A DNA stretch of 46,703 nucleotides, taken from positions 1 to 46,703 of the IMG/VR virus record IMGVR_UViG_3300028146_000016. One strand, 5' to 3'. Shown in pieces: positions 20,096-32,863 of the stretch. This DNA comes from a virus. The stretch's first letter is position 1. Every line of letters starts with the position of its first letter. A program made the position numbers and the translations under genes. The notes under the pieces are model-generated. The model made no database searches and was not told the origin of the DNA. It saw nothing but the letters and a program-made list of their open reading frames with translations.

Positions 20096-20355
20096 ATGCC
20101 GAACTTGAACAGATGCGCCAAGCCGGATACGCTGCTTTCGGCATGCTCAAGACACTGTACGAACTGGGCTACATTCCAGAGCATCATCGGGCGCACGCGT
20201 GTACCGTGATCGCGATGTGGCCTGTGCAAACATGGCCGAGTCCGACCGAAGCCGCGCACGACGCGGGGGCGGCAGCGAGCGATGAGTATCATCCGCTCGT
20301 GCATGATGATCACGTTAACTTGTCCCTAGATTGGGACATGTCCAAGCCGTTCTAA
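20092..20355 (+). CDS. Small early protein
   Basis: An 87-aa protein of unknown function. It begins MNAELEQMRQAGYAAFGMLK with a helical first half (TLYELGYIPEHHRAH) and an acidic His-rich end. AAGGGAGGGAGC directly precedes the ATG. It is coupled to neighbours by ATGA and TAATG. Confidence 0.55.
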   Translation: MNAELEQMRQAGYAAFGMLKTLYELGYIPEHHRAHACTVIAMWPVQTWPSPTEAAHDAGAAASDEYHPLVHDDHVNLSLDWDMSKPF

Positions 20356-20888
20356 TGCCGCACGAAGCCGAACGATTCGAGGCCAACATCGCTCGCTGCC
20401 CGATGTCGGGTTGTTGGTTGTGGGCGGCAGGCATTAGTAGTCGCGGGTACGGTGAGATTTACGCTTGGGGAAGGCACTACAGCACGCATCGGTTTTCTTG
20501 GGAGATTCATTACGGACCCATCCCCGCAGGACTTCATGTGTTGCATCGTTGTGATGTTCCGTGCTGTTGCAATCCGACTCATCTTTTCCTCGGGACCGAT
20601 GCCGATAACAAGCGCGACATGATCACCAAGGGCCGTCATGCAACTGGCGATCGCAATGGATCGAGAACGAAGCCTCATCGCCAGCCTCGAGGAGAGAGAC
20701 AAGGACTAGCAAAACTCACGACCGAACAGGTTATTTCAATCAAGGAGGACACAAGGACATTAAAGGCAATCGCACGCGATTACGGAGTTCACCTTAGCAC
20801 AATTCACAATATCCGATCTGGAAAAACCTGGACTCACCTTCTACCGAACCCGACACGAACAGGACACGAACATGCCCAGAATTCATGA
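20355..20888 (+). CDS. HNH endonuclease with helix-turn-helix tail
   Basis: 177 aa. The HNH_3-type core has GCWLWAAGISSRGYGEI, HRFSWEIHYGPIPAGLHVLH, CDVPCCCNPTHLFLGT and DADNKRDM, with the His, Asn and His of the active site in place. A C-terminal segment (LTTEQVISIKEDTRTLKAIA, then HLSTIHNIRSG) looks like a DNA-reading helix-turn-helix. It is a free-standing homing enzyme lying inside the recombination operon. The start at 20355 overlaps the previous stop (TAATG). It overlaps the next gene by 17 nt. Confidence 0.88.
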   Translation: MPHEAERFEANIARCPMSGCWLWAAGISSRGYGEIYAWGRHYSTHRFSWEIHYGPIPAGLHVLHRCDVPCCCNPTHLFLGTDADNKRDMITKGRHATGDRNGSRTKPHRQPRGERQGLAKLTTEQVISIKEDTRTLKAIARDYGVHLSTIHNIRSGKTWTHLLPNPTRTGHEHAQNS

Positions 20889-30418: not shown

Positions 30419-30484
30419 TGCTATGATGCAGGAGCCGGGACATGCGGTTGCAACCGCCATGCTGCCCATACAGCACTTACCGGC
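30419..30484 (+). promoter_or_regulatory. HNH leader, copy A: promoter and two-hairpin element
   Basis: An extended -10 (TGCTATGAT, 30419-30427) is followed by exactly 6 nt and then by a 51-nt element (30434-30484). GCCGG pairs with CCGGC as the outer stem. Inside are GACAT, hairpin GCGGT-TGCA-ACCGC, CA, hairpin TGCTG-CCCATA-CAGCA and CTTA. Transcription should start near the first G of the outer stem, so the structure would form the 5' end of the HNH mRNA. The same layout occurs at 32304. Confidence 0.65.
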
Positions 30485-30513
30485 GAGTCTTCAATTACCC
30501 TATGGGGGGTGTC

Positions 30514-30984
30514 ATGGCAAGAAAAGAATCGGTTGCCGAACTTCTGGAACGTCGTAGCGAACGCATTACCGAATGTGGCTGCCAGATTTGGCTTGGATGT
30601 TGCGGTGCGCAAGGACATGGACAGGCCAACGTAAATGGCCGCCGAGTCTTGGTTCATCGGCTTGCATGGGAATTGAAGCGCGGACCAATTCCTGACGGCA
30701 TGTGCATCTGTCACCACTGCGATATTGGCTCTTGCATCAATGTCTATCACTTGTTCATGGGAACTCGCATCGACAACAATGCCGACATGCGAGCAAAAAA
30801 GCGCGACAGCCCGCCGCCACATCTTCCTCGCCATCAGCGCAAGTGTGCAGCGAAACTGACTGAGCAACAGGTTCGTTCGATCAGGGATGATCCACGACCA
30901 CAGCCAGTGATTGCCGCCGACTACGGAATACGCCAGCCAACCGTGAGCAAGATCAAATTGCGGCAGCGTTGGGCGCATATCTAA
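30514..30984 (+). CDS. HNH endonuclease, copy A
   Basis: 156 aa beginning MARKESVAELLERRSERITE. The HNH_3-type core includes GCQIWLGCCGAQGHGQANV, VHRLAWELKRGPIPDGMCIC, HHCDIGSCINVYHLFMGT and RIDNNADM. A C-terminal helix-turn-helix (LTEQQVRSIRDDPRPQPVIA, PTVSKIKL) reads DNA. It is related to the genes at 32399 and 20355 but clearly diverged. It runs against the late operon and carries its own promoter. GGGGGG is the ribosome site. Confidence 0.85.
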   Translation: MARKESVAELLERRSERITECGCQIWLGCCGAQGHGQANVNGRRVLVHRLAWELKRGPIPDGMCICHHCDIGSCINVYHLFMGTRIDNNADMRAKKRDSPPPHLPRHQRKCAAKLTEQQVRSIRDDPRPQPVIAADYGIRQPTVSKIKLRQRWAHI

Positions 30985-32300
30985 TACTGCCACTCTGAGG
31001 CATACCCGAATTCTTGGAGAGCAGGAATCTTGCTCCGCATCTTGTCGCCAATGTCGTTGCGGTACTTCGGGTCGTTCGGCATCTTGATGCTCGCCACCGC
31101 CTTGTAGGCTTCGTCGCGGGCCTCGCGCACCGACGAGCCGAGGCCGGTCGCCACGGCGACATAGGTGCCCGCCGTGACCATCAGATTAATGTCCTTGCCG
31201 TCGTCGTTCGGTGCGCTACCGCTCATGACCTCGCACGGCGAAAGTACGTCCCAATACGGGTTTTCCTGATTGAGCGTATAGACCGGGATGCCGGTGCAGT
31301 CCTTCATGTTCTCCGGCTCGATCGGGAACGGCGGCATCGCCACCACTACGCCAACGGCGTGATCGGTCAATGGGCGGAACGTATCTCGACCGTCAAGCAA
31401 ATCGCCCATCCACTCGCACACGTCAGGATGCAGGGGCTGCACGATGTTCATCGCGGGCCAACCCATACGGGCGGTTATTTCGTATGGGCGCGGCTCGCCG
31501 TTGTCGTCGATGCCTACCGACACGTCGAACGATCCAGTATGCCCCATCTTGATCAGGTCTTTCTCCAGCGGCAGCAGTACTTCCTCGGCCAGTTTGGAAT
31601 CCTCGACGTACTTGATCGCCGTGCCCGTTTCGCCAGTGTTTTGGCCGCAGTCCCCCGGCATTTCCTTCTTATGTTCAAAACTCTCTTCCACGAATTTGCA
31701 GAAGCCGTTCTTGCCCAGCCAACCGTTCACAGCGAACTCGATTCCGGGCACGAATTCCTGCAGCATGAACTTGCACGCGGACCCATTGAATTTCTTTGCC
31801 CAGCGTCTAAGCATGAAAATCATATCTTTCGGGTCTTTGGACAAGTAAGACAGGCTCTTGTCCTTGTCGCCATCCTGCTTGCTGACGTACCGACCCTGTG
31901 TCACGGTCACATAAGTCTCTGCCTTCCTGTAGTCGCTGAATGATTCATACGGAATCGTCTTGATCCCGTGCGCCTTGAGGAATTCCTGACCTTTGCTTCG
32001 GATCAACTCCAACTGCGCCGACTCGTAACTAGGACTCAACACCGGATAGCCCTTGCGTTTGTAGCCGTCCAACTCCTTGAGCCACTTGACGCAATCGGTC
32101 TGCACGATCAAGTCGGCCCACTTGGCCCAGCGCTCCCAATCCTCGTTCTCGACCTTATCGCAGAGTCCGTCGCCGATCTGCCGCCGCTGGTGAGTTTTCT
32201 TGTCGCGCGCGATACAGAGCTTGACCGTGTGCCCAGCGGCCATGCAGCGCAGACCGAAATCCAATCCACTCGCGGTCGGATCGACAATTAGCACGCGCAC
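30981..32300 (-). CDS. ATP-grasp enzyme, PurD-like
   Basis: A 439-aa protein. VRVLIVDPTASGLDFGLRCM (1-20) is a Rossmann-like start. The ATP-grasp part contains LSPSYESAQLELIRSKGQEF, LQEFVPGIEFAVNGWLGKNG, KKEMPGDCGQNTGETGTAIKY, then PRPYEITARMGWPA. The overall order resembles phosphoribosylamine-glycine ligase. The role in a phage is unclear: purine supply, or ligation of an amino acid to a nucleotide, DNA base or cell-wall unit. The GTG at 32300 was chosen (TGAGG upstream). The ATG at 32327 lies within the HNH leader and adds nine residues unlike the family. Confidence 0.75.
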   Translation of the reverse strand: MRVLIVDPTASGLDFGLRCMAAGHTVKLCIARDKKTHQRRQIGDGLCDKVENEDWERWAKWADLIVQTDCVKWLKELDGYKRKGYPVLSPSYESAQLELIRSKGQEFLKAHGIKTIPYESFSDYRKAETYVTVTQGRYVSKQDGDKDKSLSYLSKDPKDMIFMLRRWAKKFNGSACKFMLQEFVPGIEFAVNGWLGKNGFCKFVEESFEHKKEMPGDCGQNTGETGTAIKYVEDSKLAEEVLLPLEKDLIKMGHTGSFDVSVGIDDNGEPRPYEITARMGWPAMNIVQPLHPDVCEWMGDLLDGRDTFRPLTDHAVGVVVAMPPFPIEPENMKDCTGIPVYTLNQENPYWDVLSPCEVMSGSAPNDDGKDINLMVTAGTYVAVATGLGSSVREARDEAYKAVASIKMPNDPKYRNDIGDKMRSKIPALQEFGYASEWQY

Positions 32301-32303
32301 TGT

Positions 32304-32369
32304 GCTATCCTCAAATTGCCGGGACATGCGCTATCGAGGCGCCGTGCTGCCACAACAGCACTTACCGGC
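32304..32369 (+). promoter_or_regulatory. HNH leader, copy B: promoter and two-hairpin element
   Basis: Extended -10 TG-C-TATCCT (32303-32311), 6 nt, then a 52-nt element (32318-32369). GCCGG/CCGGC is the outer stem. Inside are GACAT, hairpin GCGC-TATCGAG-GCGC, hairpin GTGCTG-CCACAA-CAGCAC and TTA. Compared with copy A the stem sequences differ but pairing is kept, while GACAT and CTTA are identical. The -35 side of both copies is not conserved. Confidence 0.65.
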
Positions 32370-32398
32370 AAAATGTCAACCGCCTTTGTGGAGGTATC

Positions 32399-32863
32399 AT
32401 GACCCGTCCTAACACGCTCGAAACGATTGCCGCTCGTTTGGAGAATGAGGTTGCACGAATCCCTGAAAGCGGTTGCCATCTTTGGCTTGGTTCACTAGAC
32501 AATACTGGTGGCTACGGATGTTTGAAAATCCATCAGCGACGCACACGATTGCACCGTCTTGCTTGGATTATAAAAAACGGACCAATCCCAGACGGTTTGT
32601 GTATCTTGCACAAATGCGACATTCCTTGTTGTGTTAATCCGTACCACCTGTTTCTTGGCACAAACGCTGAGAATACTTACGACAAAACGCGAAAGGGAAG
32701 ACAGGCCAAGGGTTCTCAGAACGGACGAGCTAAACTGACCGAACAACAAGTGATTGCTATTCGCTCTGACCCACGTTCTCATCGGGCCGTTTCTGAAGAG
32801 TACGGTGTGTCGGCCGTTCTTATCGGCCTCATTAGAAACGGGAAGAATTGGAATCATGTCTAA
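32399..32863 (+). CDS. HNH endonuclease, copy B
   Basis: 154 aa beginning MTRPNTLETIAARLENEVAR. The HNH_3-type core has GCHLWLGSLDNTGGYGCLKI, HRLAWIIKNGPIPDGLCILH, CDIPCCVNPYHLFLGT and AENTYDK. The tail helix-turn-helix (LTEQQVIAIRSDPRSHRAVS, then SAVLIGLIRNGKNW) is intact. GGAGGTATC is the ribosome site. It is convergent with the minus-strand genes at 32860 and overlaps their end by 4 nt. Confidence 0.85.
   Translation: MTRPNTLETIAARLENEVARIPESGCHLWLGSLDNTGGYGCLKIHQRRTRLHRLAWIIKNGPIPDGLCILHKCDIPCCVNPYHLFLGTNAENTYDKTRKGRQAKGSQNGRAKLTEQQVIAIRSDPRSHRAVSEEYGVSAVLIGLIRNGKNWNHV

Follow-up and report, generated by a model that had tools for sequence, protein, structure and literature searches.

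A three-way-junction leader RNA of phages with a covarying kissing loop at the Shine-Dalgarno sequence

Here, we report a family of phage leader RNAs, comprising at least 17 copies in 16 phage records, in which a small three-way junction presents a hairpin loop complementary to the loop of a second hairpin that carries the Shine-Dalgarno (SD) sequence of the first gene. Two copies are found in the window, the 46,703-nt stretch of viral DNA that was analysed (IMG/VR record IMGVR_UViG_3300028146_000016), and the others precede mainly replication genes of other phages. On sequence grounds we lean towards a cis-acting translational off-switch, in which the three-way-junction core, probably ligand-gated, would hold an SD-masking kissing loop. 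The masking itself is proposed with considerable confidence, and gating by a small ligand only tentatively. The family is previously undescribed, and a cis-regulatory leader that masks the SD is of a known kind; the three-way-junction core, the small size and the link to phage replication initiation appear to be new.

Results

The two leaders of the window lie on the plus strand, each ahead of an HNH endonuclease gene, and are built from an outer stem, a first junction strand (J1), two inner hairpins (hp1 and hp2), a TTA linker and a separate downstream hairpin (hp3):

30419..30427, plus strand: extended -10 TGCTATGAT of the HNH1 leader (by sequence; -10 at 6 nt spacing family-wide)
30434..30484, plus strand: leader copy 1, three-way junction, 51 nt (fold, alignment, covariance model)
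30434-30438 with 30480-30484, plus strand: copy 1 outer stem GCCGG/CCGGC
30439-30443, plus strand: copy 1 J1, GACAT
30444-30457, plus strand: copy 1 hp1
30460-30475, plus strand: copy 1 hp2, loop CCCATA at 30465-30470
30477-30479, plus strand: copy 1 TTA linker
30496..30511, plus strand: copy 1 hp3, TACCC-TATGGG-GGGTG; loop TATGGG at 30501-30506 kisses hp2 loop CCCATA; 3' arm is the SD
30514..30984, plus strand: HNH1 gene (HNH_3, PF13392)
32303..32311, plus strand: extended -10 TGCTATCCT of the HNH2 leader (by sequence; -10 at 6 nt spacing family-wide)
32318..32369, plus strand: leader copy 2, three-way junction, 52 nt (fold, alignment, covariance model)
32318-32322 with 32365-32369, plus strand: copy 2 outer stem GCCGG/CCGGC
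32323-32327, plus strand: copy 2 J1, GACAT
32328-32342, plus strand: copy 2 hp1
32344-32361, plus strand: copy 2 hp2, loop CCACAA at 32350-32355
32362-32364, plus strand: copy 2 TTA linker
32382..32395, plus strand: copy 2 hp3, GCCT-TTGTGG-AGGT; loop TTGTGG at 32386-32391 kisses hp2 loop CCACAA; 3' arm AGG is the SD
32399..32863, plus strand: HNH2 gene (HNH_3, PF13392)

A previous sequence-only reading of this DNA had described both sites as an extended -10 followed by 6 nt and an element of 51-52 nt with the outer stem GCCGG/CCGGC, and this layout was confirmed in each. The two inner hairpins, said to stay paired despite different bases, do so, and they covary across 17 copies. Of the linkers reported as identical, GACAT and TTA are so, while the C of the supposed CTTA closes hp2. 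The description as a two-hairpin element holds for hp1 and hp2, but overlooked hp3 at the SD and the loop-loop pairing. Within the window, the pattern CCGG..CTTACCGG has plus-strand matches at copies 1 and 2 only, and both of its minus-strand matches lack GGGACAT. A covariance model trained on both window copies and 15 others recovers the two in a search of the window with E of about 1e-11 to 3e-13. The copies share the same hp2 arms and have diverged in both loops, each retaining its own 6-bp kiss. Five pairs, G-U included, are possible between the hp2 loop of copy 1 and the hp3 loop of copy 2, so that the copies are incompletely orthogonal.

Scanning of IMG/VR with CCGGGACATN{22,38}CTTACCGG returned 32 loci, six of which share the fold and lie 75-80 nt upstream of a start codon. 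Relaxing GACAT added L201, L207 and L210 (J1 GACAA, GACTA), and relaxing it further added, among the matches listed, L491, L492, L508, L536, L564 and L568 (J1 GACAG). The scans thus gave at least 15 relatives, one in each of 15 other phage contigs, and on this evidence the leader is a genuine RNA family, larger than the 17 copies collected here. All copies outside the window are in IMG/VR contigs with metagenome-type identifiers, and the covariance model, run on the members' records, recovered a single convincing copy from each phage apart from that of the window, which has two. The earlier reading had proposed a search for other copies with compensatory changes as a check, and the relatives carry such changes.

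Searches for the leader among known RNAs and other genomes were negative. The earlier failure to recognise a named riboswitch or ribozyme agrees with Rfam 15, in which the leader has no match at the gathering threshold and chance matches only at relaxed thresholds; neither the cobalamin models nor those of the glnA and Downstream-peptide glutamine riboswitches match it. With blastn, the elements gave only chance matches to isolate phages up to E = 10. A pattern scan of genome contigs gave six matches, none with the correct fold, and 22 of 398 Pseudomonadota genomes had pattern matches, none with the expected hp2 recognisable by eye and at a level not above the reversed-pattern control. Three relaxed scans for outer-stem variants, two of them judged among the matches listed, yielded no family member with such a variant, and the motif is not described in the papers covered by a literature search.

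The loop of hp2 (6-7 nt) is complementary to that of hp3 (6-8 nt) in 17 of 17 copies, at a site just upstream of and overlapping the SD. By sequence, hp3 is a small hairpin of 3-5 bp, and its 3' arm forms the SD in all 17; this arm precedes the first gene's start codon, and in most copies the SD also takes in the final GG of the hp3 loop, which sits within the kissing helix. The kissing sequences differ in nearly every copy with the pairing kept, as illustrated by CCCATA/TATGGG in copy 1, CCACAA/TTGTGG in copy 2, CGGTGAT/ATCACCG in L053, CCTGAT/ATCAGG in L055, CCGCTA/TAGCGG in L057 and TCCCTG/CAGGGA in L056.

In a normalised equal-length alignment of the 17 copies, which was cut into pieces by hand and is therefore biased toward the structure, pairing is present in 98.0% of 391 pair cells, as against 72.7 +/- 1.4% after shuffling, and the covariation score is 0.668, as against 0.170 +/- 0.021. 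Two-sided changes occur in 18 of the 23 pairs in this alignment, including every pair of the kissing helix (6/6) and of hp3 (3/3), hp2 (5/5) and hp1 (4/4); none of 500 shuffles and no slid register comes near the observed covariation. Because the GACAT-relaxed copies were chosen by a ranking or filter that used hp2 and loop pairing, the unbiased test is that of the first eight copies, which had been selected on sequence and ordinary folding when the loop-loop pairing was still unnoticed. Here, 98.9% of the cells are paired, the kissing helix is paired to 100%, and the covariation score is 0.786 compared with 0.210 for shuffled sequences. hp3 was never a criterion for choosing copies, and shuffles of the raw downstream sequence are independent of the hand-cut alignment: hp3 totals 75 bp over the 17 copies (shuffled mean 28.5, maximum 48), and the joint score of kiss and hp3 is 173.5 (shuffled mean 18.1, maximum 59.3).

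The outer stem GCCGG/CCGGC, GAC and TTA are invariant in the 17 copies, although most search patterns required them. Two complete scans relaxed parts of the core, one with the outer three pairs free and one with GAC free, and the true members that they returned still carried GCCGG and GAC, which makes sequence conservation of the core likely. The junction strands are GAC-NN and UUA, and the invariance of the 16-nt core (GCCGGGAC, UUACCGGC) is partly due to ascertainment. Upstream of the core, the mean -10 PWM score of the family is 0.14 at 6 nt spacing and -2.0 to -6.4 at other spacers; the mean best -10 score is 4.4 compared with -1.3 in upstream control blocks, and only weak matches are present in L056, L058, L508 and L536. 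Since the score peaks exactly 6 nt upstream of the outer stem, the first G of this stem is the probable transcription start, which supports the earlier prediction that the RNA begins there.

A second fold is available to some members. The invariant 5' CGGGAC can pair with the 5' arm of hp2 over 5-6 bp in 9 of the 17 copies (L053, L055, L057, L052, L201, L207, L210, L491 and L564), and this is impossible in the HNH copies. The alternative could be an 'on' state of these nine members in which hp2 and the kiss are abolished, or it may be a chance consequence of CGGGAC being repeated. Many replication-gene copies also have an ACCUUUC-like pyrimidine stretch 1-10 nt past the outer stem, a feature that the HNH copies lack.

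In at least 13 of the 15 relatives, the first downstream gene is a replication initiation or primosomal gene, and in all 15, save for one unrecognised gene, the leader is upstream of replication-operon genes. The first gene is of the DUF1376/primosomal type in L026, L201, L207 and L492, together with the YFRFFPGDY protein of L020, and of replication-initiation O-like or primosomal families in L016, L210, L491, L536, L564 and L568. It encodes an AAA_25 protein with weak DnaB similarity in L012, a CHC2 primase with a VapE-like domain in L032, and a 78-aa unknown protein followed by a CHC2/D5_N primase-helicase in L033; that of L508 has no match. The sharing of one leader by such unrelated kinds of first gene argues for a common signal rather than autoregulation. 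DUF1376 genes directly behind the leader were noted in L057, L058, L201, L207 and L492. In the named phages with DUF1376 genes that were examined, the gene follows small or cI/cII-like ORFs, and the covariance model detected no leader. A leftward recombination-type gene set was seen by eye upstream in several phages.

Leaders ahead of HNH genes occur only in the window, twice. The tie to HNH genes suggested by the sequence-only reading did not hold outside it: 0 of 15 relatives precede an HNH gene, and of the HNH relatives checked elsewhere, at 17 IMG/VR loci and in 4 phages that are isolates or named, none carries the leader. A third HNH gene of the window (20331-20888) is without a leader; it is on the plus strand, belongs to phrog_59 and lies within a plus-strand cluster at about 17-25 kb. 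The HNH1 and HNH2 proteins are diverged, as had been stated, with 42% identity.

Both HNH genes are oriented opposite to the late operon. In the related phage MW202796, the ATP-grasp gene begins 4 bp past its upstream neighbour, a position occupied in the window by HNH2 and two small ORFs, and on this account the HNH genes resemble moron-type insertions with their own promoter, using this leader. The ATP-grasp proteins of the two phages are 41% identical; their upstream neighbours have no detectable similarity, so that the correspondence of the site rests on gene order. The ATP-grasp gene of MW202796 (L612, 42140-43471) is present, although unannotated in the GenBank record. That of the window is an ATP-grasp or GARS-like gene of the late operon (30981-32327, minus strand) with relatives in gut phage and Listeria phage records. 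A GTG near 32297 probably serves as the true start of this gene, whose SD would then lie inside the HNH2 promoter of the opposite strand. The shared hp2 arms, the diverged loops and the kiss kept in each copy point to duplication of leader and gene followed by constrained divergence.

Discussion

In the proposed mechanism, RNA polymerase would use the first G of the outer stem as its start site, and the transcript would fold into a compact three-way junction (outer stem, GAC-NN, UUA, hp1 and hp2) that presents the hp2 loop for a kissing complex with the loop of the weak hp3. With the core folded, probably by a putative small ligand or host factor at the invariant junction, the kiss would lock hp3 and keep ribosomes off the SD. 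With the core open, hp3 alone would be weak, its predicted stability being -3.3 to -6.6 kcal/mol in the five copies tested, and translation would proceed. MFE prediction, which is blind to the kiss, returns other folds for several copies. The usual target would be the first gene of the phage replication operon; in the phage of the window, two HNH endonuclease genes inserted opposite the late operon would use copies of the leader. The leader has two features expected of a riboswitch, a conserved structured 5' domain in 17 copies and, by sequence, an SD-masking expression platform, with hp3 and the kiss overlapping the SD in 17 of 17. It is tentatively a new phage-borne riboswitch class, whose 52-nt three-way junction might sense a host metabolite or nucleotide signal and gate the first step of phage DNA replication and, in the window, two homing-type HNH nucleases by hiding the RBS in the kiss. 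No metabolic gene among the downstream contexts hints at the compound that would be sensed.

The closest precedent is found in translational corrinoid riboswitches, in which the kissing loop L5-L13 was shown experimentally to stabilise P13 and the hairpin of the ribosome binding site (RBS) (PMC10653944). SD masking by the kissing loop is the simplest reading of the phage leader. In both systems, the loop of an aptamer-type hairpin kisses the loop of an RBS-controlling hairpin (PMC10653944), a likeness of mechanism and not of membership. The cobalamin riboswitches are large four-way junctions, whereas the leader is a 52-nt three-way junction with a kiss of 6-7 bp that uses the whole loop, another gene context and no match to the Rfam cobalamin models. 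Glutamine riboswitches (glnA and Downstream-peptide) are likewise riboswitch-type leaders carried by phages, in which riboswitches are reported to be rare (PMC9004378), but they differ from this leader in gene context, and the leader is without an Rfam match.

Control by proteins deserves the closest consideration among the alternatives. Translational repression by proteins such as RegA, gp32 and coat proteins is well known in phages, and the invariant core could serve as a binding site for a host or phage RNA-binding protein that, in place of a small ligand, stabilises the SD-masking kiss. The widely differing downstream genes fit poorly with simple autoregulation, though a host protein may be involved, and the window leaders sit away from any replication operon; gating by a protein is regarded as rather unlikely.

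The loop-loop pairing might instead activate, by opening the SD hairpin or promoting initiation. In the IncI repZ/repA system, pairing activates translation and an antisense RNA competes with it. The leaders of IncI, IncB and IncL repZ/repA resemble the phage members in target and geometry: each precedes a replication initiator gene, and the loop of a 5' hairpin pairs close to its SD. Their pseudoknot switch is established for repZ (Asano and Mizobuchi 1998, as cited in PMC10724649). In the phage leader, however, the SD itself is within the paired parts, its GG being buried in the kissing helix in the majority of copies, and an antisense RNA is known only for the plasmids. The hp3 stem covaries along with the kiss, which implies that both are maintained at once, and no leader peptide ORF was identified, although the search was not systematic. 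An activating pseudoknot is judged quite improbable.

An unregulated damper, a timer or an RNA thermometer would need no ligand: the kiss would set low or delayed translation, or melt with temperature. SD-masking hairpins are common thermometers. Phage genomes are mentioned in a paper on a thermometer-discovery pipeline (PMC11182007). For a damper, the invariant 16-nt core would be superfluous, though its invariance is in part ascertainment, and we hold out little expectation for this group of explanations.

The earlier proposal of a mobile leader for marking or stabilising an HNH homing unit draws on the position of both window copies and on the seemingly empty HNH2 site of MW202796, but the gene counts given above contradict it as a general rule, and we find it very hard to credit. 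Its components fared differently. Binding of the endonuclease is unlikely with relatives that do not precede HNH genes, and stabilisation of the mRNA leaves unexplained why a loop should kiss the SD hairpin; marking of an insertion unit is weakly supported, in that leader, promoter and HNH gene travel together here. Antitermination on RNA polymerase in the manner of the put RNAs of phage HK022, which lie downstream of early promoters and have two long stem-loops in about 70 nt (PMC9378689), was suggested by the early-operon context and by the presence of two hairpins where the transcript would begin. It was dropped once the SD kiss appeared and is exceedingly improbable, since the covarying contact is made with the SD hairpin and antitermination would not require it; by their published description, put RNAs are larger, act on RNA polymerase and have no described covarying SD contact (PMC9378689).

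Returning to the off-switch, the family offers a test set of 17 natural variants with compensatory changes, and its small scaffold with interchangeable loop pairs may be useful for building translational switches. If the reading is true, the leader would be a rare phage-borne case of riboswitch-like control, and it would give diverse uncultured phages a new point of control over the onset of replication.
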